Positions 27,697 to 45,631 of a stretch of 46,229 nt of DNA are shown one piece after another; position 1 is the stretch's first letter, and each line of letters opens with the position of its first letter. Under the pieces are notes generated by a model. The model saw only the letters and a list, made by a program, of their open reading frames with translations, did not search any database and was not told where the DNA came from. The stretch covers positions 1 through 46,229 of the forward strand of contig JACRAM010000050.1 of NCBI GenBank assembly GCA_016213405.1, read 5' to 3'. The position numbers and the translations under genes are program-made. Source of the DNA: Bacteroidota bacterium. GTDB lineage: Bacteria > Bacteroidota > Bacteroidia > Palsa-948.

Positions 27697-27848
27697 CCCC
27701 GTTGGATAATTCATTGACCAATGATGGTAAAGCAAGAAAACAATATCCTACGGGGTTTGCGTGAGGGATTGAAGTGGAAATCCCCTGACGCTTCGGTCAG
27801 GGATTGGAACGGAAAGCCCGACCTCCGCTTCGGAGGGCACGCCCAAGT
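27697..27848. repeat. Cluster of hairpin modules downstream of the phosphatase gene
   Basis: CCCCGTTGGATA (27,697-27,708) and an imperfect inverse TATCCTACGGGG (27,747-27,758) enclose TCATTG/CAATGA. Two related modules follow. One is GGGATTGAAGTGGAAA with hairpin CTGACGCTTCGGTCAG, the other GGGATTGGAACGGAAA with hairpin CCTCCGCTTCGGAGG. The two modules have the same order and similar length, so they look like a duplicated structured unit. I assign no gene here. Confidence 0.6.
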
Positions 27849-33780: not shown

Positions 33781-33853
<73 letters not shown>

Positions 33854-33898
33854 CTTTTTTTTAGAAGAAACTAAAGGTTTGAGAGAGTTCTACGGGCT

Positions 33899-33937
33899 TG
33901 GGTGCGATTTTGGGTGCTAAGCTGGGTGCGATTTTCT
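33899..33937 (+). repeat. Direct repeat GGGTGCGATTTT after tRNA-Phe
   Basis: Two copies of GGGTGCGATTTT, about 25 bp apart, with GGGTGC also in between, lie 45 bp past the tRNA. They could be a remnant of an attachment region or of an integrase gene end. Nothing else supports either. Confidence 0.4.
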
Positions 33938-33959
33938 GAGCCACAATAAATAAAAACCA

Positions 33960-36021: not shown

Positions 36022-36690
36022 ATGGAAACAAGAAAAAGACTCCGGGAAATTTACCTTGTTGTCACAAACCGTATCATTGCCCTATTGCAAAGAGATTCCG
36101 TTCTCGTCTTTGAAAAAAGCTGGAAACGAACCGCGCTTGTAAAATCAAGAAACAGAAAACAACAGCGAATAATTTTCCAAGACAAAATCCCACTTACATC
36201 AAAATCAAAAAGGAGAATTCCTGCCTGCGATGCTGTTTTAAAAAAAATGTATCTGCCGCCTGATGTCAGGAAAAGCAGCAGCAAGCCGGAGTATTGCGTG
36301 GTTTCAGACAGCATTTTTCTTCCATCAATCCGATGCTTTCGGGACTTGGATTCATATTATGAATCCCTTTTCCATGAATTGATTCATGCCACGGGGCATC
36401 CCATGCGGTTAAACAGAAAGGAGTCTTACGACTTTCGTTCTGAAAAATCTGTCTGTATAGAAGAAATAATAGCGGAAATTGGTTCCTGCTATCTGAAATA
36501 CTATACGGGCATCGGAGAAAAGTATTTTAAAAACAGCGTGGCATACATTCAGGACTGGCTGAATGGCTTTTATTACGACAAGCGTTTAATTCTTTATGCC
36601 TGCAAAAAAGCACAAGATGCCGTGAATTATGTTCTCGTAACAGGCGCAAGGCAAAATGAAACAAGACATGAGCGAAAAATCATCGAGTGA
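36022..36690 (+). CDS. ArdC-like zincin (metallopeptidase half intact)
   Basis: A 222-residue protein. The C-terminal half fits the ArdC/polyvalent zincin domain. It has the HExxH site in SLFHELIHATGHPMRL near residue 120, and then EEIIAEIGSCYLKYY supplying the third acidic ligand. The tail is AYIQDWLNGFYYDKRLILYACKKAQDAVNYVL. The N-terminal half keeps only the first helix of the ssDNA-binding domain (REIYLVVTNRIIALLQRD) and is otherwise shortened and changed. ArdC proteins protect incoming DNA from restriction. It overlaps the next gene by 35 bp. Compare the gene at 37,028, which shows the opposite pattern. Confidence 0.8.
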   Translation: METRKRLREIYLVVTNRIIALLQRDSVLVFEKSWKRTALVKSRNRKQQRIIFQDKIPLTSKSKRRIPACDAVLKKMYLPPDVRKSSSKPEYCVVSDSIFLPSIRCFRDLDSYYESLFHELIHATGHPMRLNRKESYDFRSEKSVCIEEIIAEIGSCYLKYYTGIGEKYFKNSVAYIQDWLNGFYYDKRLILYACKKAQDAVNYVLVTGARQNETRHERKIIE

Positions 36691-36883
36691 AAAATTTATC
36701 AGGCGGAATCTCAAGGTATATTACGGGCAGTATGCTCACGACAGCAAACAACATCCGGTAATACGCCTTGGCGGAAAATATCTCCAGGCGCTTTTTAATT
36801 TTAATGTGGGAGATACCATCGAGGTAAGCATGCATAGCGGAGAAATCAGGATTCGCAAAATCGGTGCACCGTGTGGTAAATAA
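36656..36883 (+). CDS. SymE/AbrB-like small protein
   Basis: A 75-residue protein. Residues about 15-72 fit the SymE toxin/AbrB-like fold: FIRRNLKVYYGQYAHD, PVIRLGGKYLQALFNFNVGDTIEV and GEIRIRKIG (family pattern: P-x-I-R-L-x-G-K-W-L ... G-x-x-V/I-x-V). SymE of E. coli is an SOS-induced RNA-cleaving or nucleoid-acting toxin, and related proteins occur beside restriction genes. It overlaps the ArdC-like gene by 35 bp, so it probably depends on its transcript. The second ATG (36,668) is an alternative start. Confidence 0.75.
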   Translation: MKQDMSEKSSSEKFIRRNLKVYYGQYAHDSKQHPVIRLGGKYLQALFNFNVGDTIEVSMHSGEIRIRKIGAPCGK

Positions 36884-37027: not shown

Positions 37028-37789
37028 ATGGAACTAACTACTTCAAATAACAAAGATGTTTACCAAATTATCACGAATGAAATTATCACTCTTCTGAAAA
37101 AGGACATTATCCCTTGGAGAAGATTCTGGGTCAACAGAAATTTTCCGGTGAATCTTATTACCAAGAAACCTTACCGGGCTGTAAATTTTTTTCTTCTGGA
37201 TTCCCTGAAATATTATGAAAATTATTATCTCACCCGCAGGCAGATAAATGAAATAGGCGCACAGGTAGAAGAAGGCAAGAATCCTTATCCGGTTGTTTTC
37301 CAAAAGAAAACCGGGCTCTGCCTTAGTTATGTGTTCAATGTAAATCAATGTGCTGGTCTTCCTGCTGGCATAGTTCCTCCGGAAACCGAGAGCCGGAGAA
37401 TGATTTATTCCTGCGGTGTTATTATCCGGAATCCACGTAGCAGACAAGAATACTGCTATGATGGTAATAGCCTCAATGTTGTTTGGGGTGACCCGCTCGA
37501 CTGTGTGCGTGTAGATTTCCCATCGCGATTGCGCATTCTGCCTCGGAATGAGAAAGAAGAAATTCAATGGGACAATTTTTCCCTTGAAGAAATGACAGCG
37601 GAAATTACTTCCGGTTATCTGAAATCACTTGCCGGTGTGGAGGCACAGCGATGCGTAAATGACTCTGCATACATATCTGCATGGATAAGAAAACTTGAGA
37701 GCGATAAGCATTTTATTATCCGTGCCGGCTTTCAAGCCCAGAAAGCAGTTGATGTTATCTTCGGAAAAAAGACCCGGGAACCACCCTGA
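37028..37789 (+). CDS. ArdC-like protein with intact ssDNA-binding domain, zincin site lost
   Basis: A 253-residue protein. Residues 8-100 fit the ArdC N-terminal ssDNA-binding domain closely: VYQIITNEIITLLKKDIIPWRRFW, PVNLITKKPYRAVNFFLL, YLTRRQINEIGAQVEEGKNPYPVVFQKK. The C-terminal half follows the zincin domain layout (SLEEMTAEITSGYLKS, then AYISAWIRKLESDKHFIIRAGFQAQKAVDVIF). No HExxH is present, so peptidase activity is not expected. It is the mirror image of the gene at 36,022. Its TGA stop lies within the stem of the following terminator. Confidence 0.82.
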   Translation: MELTTSNNKDVYQIITNEIITLLKKDIIPWRRFWVNRNFPVNLITKKPYRAVNFFLLDSLKYYENYYLTRRQINEIGAQVEEGKNPYPVVFQKKTGLCLSYVFNVNQCAGLPAGIVPPETESRRMIYSCGVIIRNPRSRQEYCYDGNSLNVVWGDPLDCVRVDFPSRLRILPRNEKEEIQWDNFSLEEMTAEITSGYLKSLAGVEAQRCVNDSAYISAWIRKLESDKHFIIRAGFQAQKAVDVIFGKKTREPP

Positions 37790-38736: not shown

Positions 38737-39204
38737 ATGACAAAAGAAAAAACAGAAAAACAAAAATCGCTTACGCCACGCGAAGCCGCGCAGGATTTTA
38801 TTCGCCCTTATGTTTTAAAAAGTGATACTATGCCCCTTCATCCTTCCGCCAAACTACGCCATGAAACAAAAAATTATTCGGCACATATTGAAGAAACGGG
38901 AAACGTGGTAATCACAAAACTTTATGGCGAAGCCATTGAAGAAAAATTTTCACTGAAAGAAATCATGAATGATGTTACCCTTGAGTTTATCTATGGAAAA
39001 GGAATGACAAACTTTACCGCTCCCACTGCAAAAGAAGCGTATGCGCTACGAGAGAAAGAAATAAAGTTACTGCTCAAGGAACTAAAAGTGAAATTAAAAA
39101 AGCACAGGAAGGATTTCAAAAATTATACTTCCAACTGGGGATATGTAGGAGATTTGGGTCATATCAGCAGCAAGTTGAAAGAAATTGTTTTGTTCCTTCA
39201 CTAA
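38737..39204 (+). CDS. Hypothetical cassette protein
   Basis: A 155-residue protein from the ATG at 38,737. A much longer frame beginning at 38,458 would overlap the previous gene, its terminator and promoter D, so I reject that start. The N-terminus is polar (MTKEKTEKQKSLTPREAAQDFI), the middle suggests a beta-hairpin (NYSAHIEETGNVVITKLYG), and the C-terminal part is a long basic helix (REKEIKLLLKELKVKLKKHRKDFK). I recognise no family. It is carried by promoter D and is followed directly by promoter F. Confidence 0.7.
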   Translation: MTKEKTEKQKSLTPREAAQDFIRPYVLKSDTMPLHPSAKLRHETKNYSAHIEETGNVVITKLYGEAIEEKFSLKEIMNDVTLEFIYGKGMTNFTAPTAKEAYALREKEIKLLLKELKVKLKKHRKDFKNYTSNWGYVGDLGHISSKLKEIVLFLH

Positions 39205-39209
39205 GAAGC

Positions 39210-39238
39210 TTGACTTCTCTTGTGCGCCAAGTTATGTG
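39210..39238 (+). promoter_or_regulatory. Cassette promoter F, ahead of the structured RNA
   Basis: TTGACT at 39,210 and TATGTG at 39,233. It starts 5 bp after the previous stop codon. The expected transcription start, about 7 nt past the box, coincides with the first base pair of the predicted RNA structure. Confidence 0.6.
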
Positions 39239-39243
39239 GTATA

Positions 39244-39343
39244 TAGGGTGGCTTGTGATTCTTTTTCATAAGAACCAATCCCTACCCCAACTGCCGAAAG
39301 GCAGAGCCCGTATGGAACTTATTATTCCAGCGGGCTGTTTTTT
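39244..39343 (+). ncRNA. Candidate structured small RNA cassette
   Basis: Three consecutive stem-loops with no convincing ORF. Stem 1 has TAGGG (39,244-39,248) with CCCTA (39,280-39,284), TGG with CCA, and CTTGTGA (39,252-39,258) with TCATAAG (39,266-39,272). Stem 2 is CTGCC, GAAA loop, GGCAG (39,291-39,304). Stem 3 is AGCCCG, TGGAA with TTCCA, and CGGGCT (39,305-39,336), followed by six T, and is an intrinsic terminator. Promoter F lies directly upstream. I do not recognise it as 6S, tmRNA, a riboswitch or SRP RNA. A small regulator of the cassette genes or of the host is possible; this is inference. Confidence 0.6.
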
Positions 39344-39355
39344 ATTAGATGTGAA

Positions 39356-40618
39356 TTATTTTATCTGCCTTGTTTCGGATTTGCATTTTGTAATAAGTAT
39401 TTGACCTTGACTTACTGCATTTACATGATAACCTTTCCATTCGGGTTTCGCTGAGTAAGAATGAGAAGTGGCTGATAAATTATAAAAACATTGACTTTCA
39501 TTTGGATCTAACGTTAATGATTGCGGGTTTAGATTTTCGTCTATAGTAACAATAAGTTTTTCATTGGTAAGATTTGTAAAGCAATAATCTCCGGTACTTT
39601 TTGTTTCGCATTCCTTTGCTGTTGGGTTTGTTTCTTTTGAAGCAGTACTGCTGCCATCAGAATTTAGTGTAATTGTTTTAGTTTGGCATTTTTCTATCAA
39701 TATGTTTCCTGATTTTATTGTTATTAATCCATAAGTTAAAGCTTTCGTGCCTTTTACGGTGTATTGCCATACTTTTGCCGGATATTGATAAATGCACTCC
39801 GAACTATTCGGCTGAATTGTCAAAACGGGACCATCTCCTGTTCTAACTTGTATTGAACTGCCAAATTTATTGTACTCATTATCCATATCATATAAATCAA
39901 CATAAATAGTTTGGGATGTTTGATTAACAAAACAATAATCTCCCGTATTTTTAGTTTCACAATTTTTATTTTCTTTTTCAGGAGAATCATTCCCCTTTTT
40001 TGTTTGGGGTATAGTTGGTGAATCATTTTTAGAATTATTTTCTTCTTTGGCTTTATTCCAACCAACCGTTACGGCTTGCATTCTTGCACTTCTTCCAGGA
40101 TGAGTGGGGCAGGCTTTTTCGGGAAATGTCATCACTGCGGATAGCGCTTGTTCTAAAGTAGCGCCAATTTTAAATAAAGCAAAACCAGCAAATTCATCTG
40201 CTTCAAGTTCTTTTGGTGGCCTGCTTCCTATGCTATCTAATGTATGACCGTTAAGATGATGACCTATTTCGTGTGCTAAAACAAAAGTCGCTGCCCAATT
40301 TGTCTTTGCTGTATTTTTTATTCCTTGAATGTAACCCTCATTATAATAAATATATCTTTCTCCTTTTTCAATTACAGCGGAAGCATTTGGCACATTTGCT
40401 GCCTTAATTTTAAAATTGGGTTTTAATCCGATTTTGTCCATAATATTTTGAACAATGTCGCGAGCTTCATTGCTTGAGGAAAAGGAATAGATTTCAGTTT
40501 CAAAAGGTTTTCCATCGATACTACAAGCATTAAAATTTGTCAAACTCACTAAATTTTGTCCAAGAAGATTTTGAACCACAAACAAAATAAATAAAAAATT
40601 AACAGTTATTCTTTTCAT
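39356..40618 (-). CDS. Secreted M48-like metalloprotease with two C-terminal repeat domains
   Basis: A 420-residue protein from the ATG at 40,618, giving signal peptide MKRITVNFLFILFVVQNLLGQ. The longer frame has no ATG and adds a non-secretory leader. The protease motif is VLAHEIGHHLNGH near residue 115, followed by the third zinc ligand in ELEADEFAGFALF. Two related beta-type modules follow after a Lys/Asn-rich linker: one from NTGDYCFVNQTSQTIYVD, the other from STGDYCFTNLTNEKLIVT, each with two Cys. They probably mediate surface binding. It is the only minus-strand gene within the cassette run and lacks the shared promoter. Confidence 0.85.
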   Translation of the reverse strand: MKRITVNFLFILFVVQNLLGQNLVSLTNFNACSIDGKPFETEIYSFSSSNEARDIVQNIMDKIGLKPNFKIKAANVPNASAVIEKGERYIYYNEGYIQGIKNTAKTNWAATFVLAHEIGHHLNGHTLDSIGSRPPKELEADEFAGFALFKIGATLEQALSAVMTFPEKACPTHPGRSARMQAVTVGWNKAKEENNSKNDSPTIPQTKKGNDSPEKENKNCETKNTGDYCFVNQTSQTIYVDLYDMDNEYNKFGSSIQVRTGDGPVLTIQPNSSECIYQYPAKVWQYTVKGTKALTYGLITIKSGNILIEKCQTKTITLNSDGSSTASKETNPTAKECETKSTGDYCFTNLTNEKLIVTIDENLNPQSLTLDPNESQCFYNLSATSHSYSAKPEWKGYHVNAVSQGQILITKCKSETRQIK

Positions 40619-40818: not shown

Positions 40819-40878
40819 GTCATGCAGAAATTCTTTAAGTCAAACCATACCCGATTTATCGGGGATAAAATTTTTACC

Positions 40879-42033
40879 ATGAGAAAAAATAGTTCTTTAA
40901 AAAAGGTAAGTAAAGAAAACACTACAAAAAACTTACCCGCAGCCACTAATCAGGAAAAGATTCAAGTGGAATACACAAATGCCTTTCTACTTGAAGGGAA
41001 AAAACTTCAGCCGTTAACAGTGGATTATCAGAAAGCAATTGAATTGCATCAGTCCAAGCCGATTGAAAAGAAAATCAAATCAGAGAGCGAGTTGGAAGAC
41101 ATTGTCTTGCGCAATTCGAAAATTCTTTTTGGCGGAAACACTTTACTGATTAATTTGCAAGAGAAAACGGGCATTGAATTCACTGGCGGTTTTTCGCCCG
41201 CAGGAATTTTGCTCGACTTTCAGGACAAGCAGAAACCAAAACTTTTTCTGCTCGAGGTTTTCCTTTCCGAAAAAACTTTCAGCGACCTTTTCTACCAGAT
41301 GACCCGGTTGTTTTCTTTTTTCAGAGACGAAGAAAGCACAAGGCAGTTTGCAGACGCGCTGGGAGGCGTTATAGGCGCGGATAAGGCGTTAAAAAAGGAA
41401 TTCCGAGCAAGGGTAGGCAGTGGAGAGATAAGAGAGGTTTTAGCGGAGATCCTGAAGCGAAAGCCCGCAGTGCTGCTTGTAACCAACAACGAAAAAAATG
41501 ATTTGCCAGTGCTGACGGAAACCTACACGGAAACATGGGGGAAATTAGTGAAGCCGATTTTTCTTCGCAAGTTTTTGTGCAAGGGCGATACTATCATTAC
41601 GGTTCGTCCGCTCTTTTCAGAAATCAATGGTAAAAAAGTAGTGAAGGAAGGGAAAGTAAAATCTACAGTGGAAGACCATTTGGAAAATGTGTCAGAACCT
41701 GTAAGAGAAATTTTCCTGCAAATCAAGAAAGAGTTGCTGAAGGCGGATAAGGAACTTGAATTCCGGGTAAAGCAGTATTATATTTCCATGCGGAAAAACC
41801 GCAACCTTGCGTTTTTCCAGTTAGGGAAAAAGAAACTCTCCGTTGTGATTGCCAATCCTGAAAAGGGTATGCAAAAAAAAATCAAGCATCATAAAACTTT
41901 GACGCTTGCTCCCTCCGTGAAAAAATTCTGGAATGGGAATGAGCATTGTTTTACGGTGGTGATTGAAAGCGCACAACATCTCAGCGAAATCATCAACTTG
42001 CTGAAAAAACTCGTGAAAGATACAGAAGAATGA
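40879..42033 (+). CDS. DUF5655-type protein with nuclease-like N-terminal half
   Basis: A 384-residue protein from the ATG at 40,879; the ATG at 40,822 lies within 4 nt of the promoter box. Residues about 60-180 look like a PD-(D/E)xK-related fold (ESELEDIVLRNSKILFGG, then AGILLDFQDKQKPKLFLLEVFLSE), with D and E present but the lysine missing. Residues about 275-384 fit the DUF5655 layout: VEDHLENVSEPVREIFLQIKK, VKQYYISMRKNRNLAFFQL, and a final HCFTVVIESAQHLSEIINLLKK. Such combinations appear near restriction systems. The activity is unknown. Confidence 0.72.
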   Translation: MRKNSSLKKVSKENTTKNLPAATNQEKIQVEYTNAFLLEGKKLQPLTVDYQKAIELHQSKPIEKKIKSESELEDIVLRNSKILFGGNTLLINLQEKTGIEFTGGFSPAGILLDFQDKQKPKLFLLEVFLSEKTFSDLFYQMTRLFSFFRDEESTRQFADALGGVIGADKALKKEFRARVGSGEIREVLAEILKRKPAVLLVTNNEKNDLPVLTETYTETWGKLVKPIFLRKFLCKGDTIITVRPLFSEINGKKVVKEGKVKSTVEDHLENVSEPVREIFLQIKKELLKADKELEFRVKQYYISMRKNRNLAFFQLGKKKLSVVIANPEKGMQKKIKHHKTLTLAPSVKKFWNGNEHCFTVVIESAQHLSEIINLLKKLVKDTEE

Positions 42034-45241: not shown

Positions 45242-45631
45242 CTAGGAAAGTTTTGCGCAGGTTTGGGGATAACTTCGGGGTTCTCCACTGGTTTTCCCCT
45301 GCTGTCCCACAACCGAATGGAACATACTGGAGAGTTTATAGAACATTCTTTTTTTGCCTTTTCTTTTTTCGGGCATATCCAGTAATTCTCCTTCTTCAGA
45401 AAAAACTTCAATGAAATTTTTCCCGGCAAGCATTTCAATGGCAGAAGTTATGGAACGCTGGGAACATCCTGTTTTTGCTTTCAATTGACTTGCGGAAATC
45501 CAGTCGCTTTCTTTTTTCCATCCGAGTGTCTGGCGGATAATTACAAGAAGCATTTTAAGTTCTGTTCCCTTCAGATTTCTCAGATGTTCATCAAGCAGAA
45601 AGTTGGGAACGGGAGTAGTTTTGACTTGCAT
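45242..45631 (-). CDS. Phage O-like replication initiator (N-terminal HTH domain)
   Basis: A 129-residue protein matching the N-terminal winged-helix domain of phage replication protein O. It has VPNFLLDEHLRNLKGTELKMLLVIIRQTLGWKKESDWISASQL, in part, and then AKTGCSQRSITSAIEMLAGKNFIEV. Such proteins recognise an origin and load the helicase. A Ser/Lys/Pro-rich tail ends PQTCAKLS. It sits near the right edge of the island beside a 107-bp hairpin (45,911-46,017), which could hold an origin; this is inference. It implies that the island was once a replicating element. Confidence 0.75.
   Translation of the reverse strand: MQVKTTPVPNFLLDEHLRNLKGTELKMLLVIIRQTLGWKKESDWISASQLKAKTGCSQRSITSAIEMLAGKNFIEVFSEEGELLDMPEKRKGKKRMFYKLSSMFHSVVGQQGKTSGEPRSYPQTCAKLS

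Follow-up and report, generated by a model that had tools for sequence, protein, structure and literature searches.

The integrative element and its RNA locus

The window, a stretch of 46,229 nucleotides, corresponds to contig C50 of a Bacteroidota genome of 3.65 Mb (G000). A phage-like integrative element spans the region from a tRNA-Phe gene (33781-33854) to the contig end, and many of its cassettes have promoter-like and terminator-like sequences of their own. They include genes for an ArdC-type metallopeptidase, for a SymE-like protein (36656-36883, plus strand), which overlaps the end of the metallopeptidase gene, for a protein with an ArdC N-terminal domain and for an N6 methylase, as well as orf155 (38737-39204, plus strand) and the RNA locus (39210-39343). 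The set further comprises an M48 peptidase gene on the minus strand (39356-40618), a DUF5655 gene (40822-42033, plus strand; PF18899), DNA methylase genes and a gene similar to that of phage replication protein O (45242-45631, minus strand). The RNA locus is thus placed between orf155, just 5' of it, and the peptidase gene, which is the next gene and converges with it, and the SymE-like gene lies 2.3 kb upstream.

Homologs of several of these genes occur in two sister species (G003 and G006), on contig C59 of the window's own genome, and in a related element of another family (G072). The orf155 product, which belongs to no Pfam family, is 57% identical to its G006 and C59 copies, and the DUF5655 protein, present in every RNA-bearing island, has 40-50% identity to those of G003, G006, C59 and G072. 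The replication protein O-like gene was recognized by tblastn to the phage protein, and its G006 homolog matches PF04492 at 2.9e-14. The cassettes between 36000 and 42050 share a leader signature, a TTGAC...TATCATG promoter to which a GTTCWTT-like stretch ahead of the start codon is often added; their order is permuted between islands. Short repeated motifs of the GTGCG type, possibly recombinase-binding sites, adjoin the island end near tRNA-Phe both in the window (33870-33950) and in G005 (L049, 11200-11330), and similar motifs mark the end of the G006 island (L078, 6600-6640). Neither SymE nor the RNA was found in the G005 island, which occupies the same tRNA-Phe site. Elsewhere in the window, a match to the Rfam Flavo-1 RNA at 27741-27827 (plus strand) scores 44.7 bits, barely above the gathering score of 42.

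The RNA locus opens with a plus-strand promoter sequence (39210-39238) made up of TTGACT (39210-39215), a 17-nt spacer and TATGTG (39233-39238); the promoters of neighboring window cassettes align to TTGAC...TATCATG. As judged from the fold and the homologs, the predicted transcript of about 95-100 nt (within 39240-39343, plus strand) would start at about 39240-39246 and end at the T tract. Its 5' part forms a composite hairpin (39244-39284) with a basal GGG/CCC helix, a bulged A(U), a UGG/CCA helix, an internal loop and a variable apical hairpin of 7 bp, in which TAGGG (39244-39248) pairs with CCCTA (39280-39284), TGG (39249-39251) with CCA (39275-39277), and CTTGTGA (39252-39258) with TCATAAG (39266-39272). 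A GAAA-tetraloop hairpin, CTGCC-GAAA-GGCAG (39291-39304), and an intrinsic terminator (39305-39343) follow, the latter consisting of a hairpin (39305-39336) with the inner stem TGGAA/TTCCA and a T tract (39338-39343). The minimum free energy (MFE) structure of 39240-39343 contains exactly these stems at -40.5 kcal/mol, as against -22.3 +/- 3.5 kcal/mol for dinucleotide shuffles (z -5.2), none of 200 being as good. The first-pass annotation had described a promoter and a strong terminator at 39210-39343; every element that it named was found in the sequence, and the composite hairpin begins about where transcription is expected to start.

The observation that the locus has no convincing ORF also holds. 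The sole listed same-strand ORF that overlaps it is a TTG-initiated frame of 64 codons starting inside the -35 box, and no reading frame is open across all four copies of the RNA described below. A coding role was rejected because the reading frames differ among the copies and are not conserved. Neither the window copy nor the others match Rfam 15 at the gathering score, in agreement with the earlier impression that the RNA belongs to no known family; the window copy gave only sub-threshold noise from animal RNAs, with E up to 5.

Copies in sister islands and compensatory changes

Four copies of the RNA were found, all in one genus: two in islands of the window genome, and one in an island of each of the two sister species. 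When 149 related genomes were searched at the DNA level, one meaningful match emerged, limited to the terminator, in G003 (SCSP01000393). This contig, from the same genus, harbors a complete cassette: a TTGACT promoter and a GGTATATAAGGGTG start precede the composite hairpin and its terminator, and homologs of the window's SymE-like, N6 methylase and DUF5655 genes come next. A covariance model of the window copy alone recovers the G003 copy (L016:3107-3192, minus strand) with E = 2.9e-6 in 0.5 Mb. A two-sequence model identified the G006 copy (L078:6406-6487, minus strand) and scored that of C59 (L169:5250-5335, plus strand; E = 5e-9), a locus first reached via its SymE-like gene. The C59 locus is a second related element; it includes a tyrosine integrase and a run of RNA, SymE, orf155 and DUF5655 of its own, and a tRNA-Met gene lies close by.

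A four-copy model detected no further copies in the genus genomes searched, and the additional matches inspected were ordinary terminators; occurrence outside the genus is therefore unproven. Strict filters on large genome sets may overlook divergent copies, and the class-wide run overlooked that of C59. Model matches in G148, G017, G038, G018 and G004 were rejected as ordinary terminators devoid of the 5' helix. Weak BLAST matches in G109, G113, G083 and G096 lie within unrelated sequence and were likewise rejected. Direct DNA similarity was nil in plasmids and amounted to chance 29-nt matches in phages. No copy of the RNA was present in 80 IMG/VR loci that encode a related DNA methylase, the four matches of an IMG/VR pattern scan were all unrelated, and scans of viral contigs with DUF5655, orf155 and SymE alignments revealed no relative.

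When folded singly by MFE, all four copies adopt the same architecture. At its base is a GGG(U)/ACCC helix carrying a bulged A; a short GC helix, an internal loop and an apical hairpin whose sequence varies come next, and a C-rich linker then leads to the terminator. The distance from TTGACT to the GGG of the first stem is 30-32 nt in all of them, with a similar TTA-type -7 box. Because a two-sequence MAFFT alignment misregistered the stems, the copies were aligned by structure with Infernal, and an unbiased MAFFT alignment of four sequences served as a check. Across the four copies, the structure-fitted alignment shows two-sided changes in 14 of the 32 pairs, and 96% of its pair cells are standard. 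None of 500 shuffles was as good, and slid structures gave one to four doubly changed pairs. Because a structure-fitted alignment leans towards structure, the test was repeated on the plain MAFFT alignment, from which RNAalifold returned the same helices with 9 doubly changed pairs out of 26.

Two-sided changes are found in 10 of the 15 pairs of the 5' composite hairpin and in 4 of the 12 pairs of the terminator, the AGCCCG/CGGGCT base of which is identical in the four copies. Since ten doubly changed pairs fall in the 5' hairpin, the signal extends beyond conservation of the terminator. An ordinary terminator preceded by a chance hairpin would account for the terminator being the best conserved part, and terminator-only matches of the model are common (25-29 bits), but a 5' helix with that many compensated pairs at a fixed distance from a conserved promoter makes this explanation extremely unlikely. 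G-U pairs occur within the helices as expected of the plus strand as RNA, which identifies that strand as the probable folded molecule.

A covariance search in related islands had been set beforehand as the test of a structured RNA, and it found the stems altered with their pairing kept. The proposal that the product of the cassette is a structured RNA and not a protein thus gains support from compensatory variation between islands. The three-stem fold proposed for it is correct for the window copy, as its MFE structure indicates, but not as a conserved shape: the other three copies have no paired letters in the columns of the CTGCC-GAAA-GGCAG hairpin. The conserved RNA thus has two structural domains instead of three, this hairpin being absent from the other copies. 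The ArdC-type genes have the same distribution as the second hairpin: of the genus islands compared, they were seen only in that of the window. The comparative sequence evidence for an RNA family is strong, if drawn from few copies, and the locus very likely represents a new family of small RNAs whose shape, but not sequence, is preserved in sister islands.

Candidate partners and targets

Gene order is otherwise permuted between islands, and the RNA retains its own promoter and terminator; it therefore behaves as an independent cassette and not as the leader of one gene. In G003, G006 and C59, a SymE-like gene is found directly 3' of the RNA, and a separate promoter-like sequence for this gene follows the terminator. 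A cis-acting leader or attenuator of the downstream gene, or a structure operating at the DNA level, such as an origin or a recombination site, might be suspected from the same-strand gene that comes next in these three copies and from the proximity of the hairpins to the element end in G006. However, the separate promoter-like sequence of symE, the G-U pairs, which suit RNA better than DNA, and the terminator that closes the predicted transcript all argue against such a role, and the arrangement in the window, where the next gene converges, already disfavors it; this possibility is very improbable. The promoter, the 5' hairpin with compensatory changes, the terminator, the lack of an ORF and the separate mobility of the cassette are directly supported by the sequences, and they are features of an independently transcribed structured small RNA, transcription being predicted.

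The locus is probably, by a modest margin over even chances, an autonomous gene that encodes a small structured RNA on an integrative phage-like element, which would act in trans by virtue of its shape, with the SymE-like protein as the best candidate partner. Once transcribed, the RNA would most likely use its basal bulged-A stem and the adjoining internal loop as a working surface to bind a protein, and it might thereby restrain or titrate the element's SymE-like protein, a putative member of the AbrB-fold family. Base pairing by the loop is less likely because the sequences of the apical loop and stem are not conserved.

All four SymE loci of the genus, distributed over three genomes, lie in islands that also carry the RNA, and the remaining four genomes gave neither a SymE gene nor a convincing match to the RNA. 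This suggests that the two form a module. Nevertheless, these loci are few and linked, and they are not independent because the islands are related. In the window, moreover, the RNA is separated from the SymE-like gene, which overlaps the ArdC-type gene there. The assignment of the SymE-like proteins also calls for caution, as they match PF08845 with E values of 1e-5 to 6e-4 (1.4e-5 for the window protein), under the gathering score in four of five proteins, and the G006 protein has no match. In the G072 element, SymE is followed by DUF5655, as in the genus islands. A non-coding stretch 5' of that SymE-like gene (C135, L193, 9089-9173) contains a 19-bp bulged hairpin and a terminator (fold z -6.0). 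It occupies the same position before SymE, but its sequence is unrelated to the four genus copies and cannot be aligned to them. SymE genes of other element types (G201, G062, G088, G424, G430 and G527) have no such RNA upstream, which also weighs against the partnership.

In E. coli, the antisense RNA SymR controls SymE, and ribosomes and SymE are purified together (PMC1891008); this makes the link between the RNA and SymE plausible, as a lead and not as a test. A narrower version of the SymE partnership is that the RNA is an antidote to, or regulator of, the SymE-like protein, through direct binding in a type III-like manner or pairing with the symE mRNA in a type I-like manner. Adjacency upstream of symE in three genus islands, the positional analogue in G072, the agreement in presence and absence within the genus and the E. 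coli precedent are all consistent with it. On the other hand, the RNA is not antisense to symE, its pairing with its own symE is no better than in mismatched RNA-symE combinations, and the window copy is not adjacent to the gene, so that an antitoxin-like function is possible, with a rather low probability. Somewhat more doubtful still is the broader proposal of an undescribed RNA-protein pair on Bacteroidota integrative elements, in which a stand-alone, non-antisense structured RNA would control a SymE-family protein, and RNAs of similar shape and unrelated sequence would fill this role across lineages, as in genus g1 and G072.

Antisense regulation of another mRNA, of the island or of the host, was considered with regard to the island genes. 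Duplex energies between the RNA and the whole island were not better than those of shuffles. A perfect 13-nt complement does exist between the window RNA (39299-39311) and the mRNA of the ArdC-type gene (37312-37324), and 9 of 500 shuffles reached it; as one of eight tests, however, it is not significant after correction. The complementary site lies in the middle of the coding sequence, the RNA segment involved is itself enclosed in two hairpins, and no other copy of the RNA has such a complement. An antisense regulator is hence unlikely.

Lastly, the RNA could serve as a decoy against host immunity, for instance as an RNA anti-CRISPR, an idea to which its neighbors of anti-restriction type, with an ArdC N-terminal domain and DNA methylases, lend some appeal. 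A search for Cas1 was negative in G000, G003 and G006, which bear the RNA, and in G072, and the only Cas1-bearing genome of the genus, G005, is without the RNA. This result disfavors a CRISPR decoy, as does the apical stem, which varies freely in sequence, unlike a repeat mimic; a decoy function of this kind is highly unlikely. Of the likeness to small regulators or decoys noted in the first-pass annotation, the CRISPR decoy part is not supported, given the negative Cas1 search, and antisense action on island genes does not rise above chance after correction for multiple tests.

Comparison with known systems

With this locus, the little-known integrative phage-like elements of uncultured Bacteroidota gain an RNA family that is conserved in structure and not represented in Rfam. 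The favored reading is an RNA that would act in trans, by its shape, on a protein partner, for which the SymE-like protein would be the first candidate. Short structured RNAs are known from other integrative phage-like elements, such as the P4 CI RNA and lambda OOP. The RNA described here resembles them in size and setting, but nothing in Rfam matches its sequence, and no antisense target was detected within its element.

In type III toxin-antitoxin systems, a structured RNA of the ToxI type, arranged as a repeat array, precedes the toxin gene directly, shares its promoter and is accompanied by a terminator. A structured RNA with a terminator directly 5' of a possible toxin gene is found here as well. 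In contrast, it is a single unit with no tandem repeats, the protein is SymE-like rather than an RNase of the ToxN, CptN or TenpN type and its gene has a separate promoter-like sequence, and in the window the RNA is unlinked to symE, with the convergent peptidase gene next to it. RNA anti-CRISPRs (Racr) are likewise solitary small RNAs carried on mobile elements among possible counter-defense genes (PMC10651486), but here Cas1 was not detected in any genome that bears the RNA, and the free variation of the stem sequence is unlike that expected of a repeat mimic.

A parallel in terms of the protein is the type I toxin-antitoxin system SymE/SymR of E. coli, in which a small RNA and a SymE-family protein of AbrB fold are encoded close together, much as the RNA and the SymE-like gene are here. 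The arrangement differs, as SymR is cis-antisense to the symE mRNA, whereas the present RNA is encoded on the same strand, upstream of symE and without overlap, with its own promoter and terminator. If the link to SymE is true, it would represent non-antisense RNA control of a SymE-family protein, in a family hitherto tied to control by antisense RNA.
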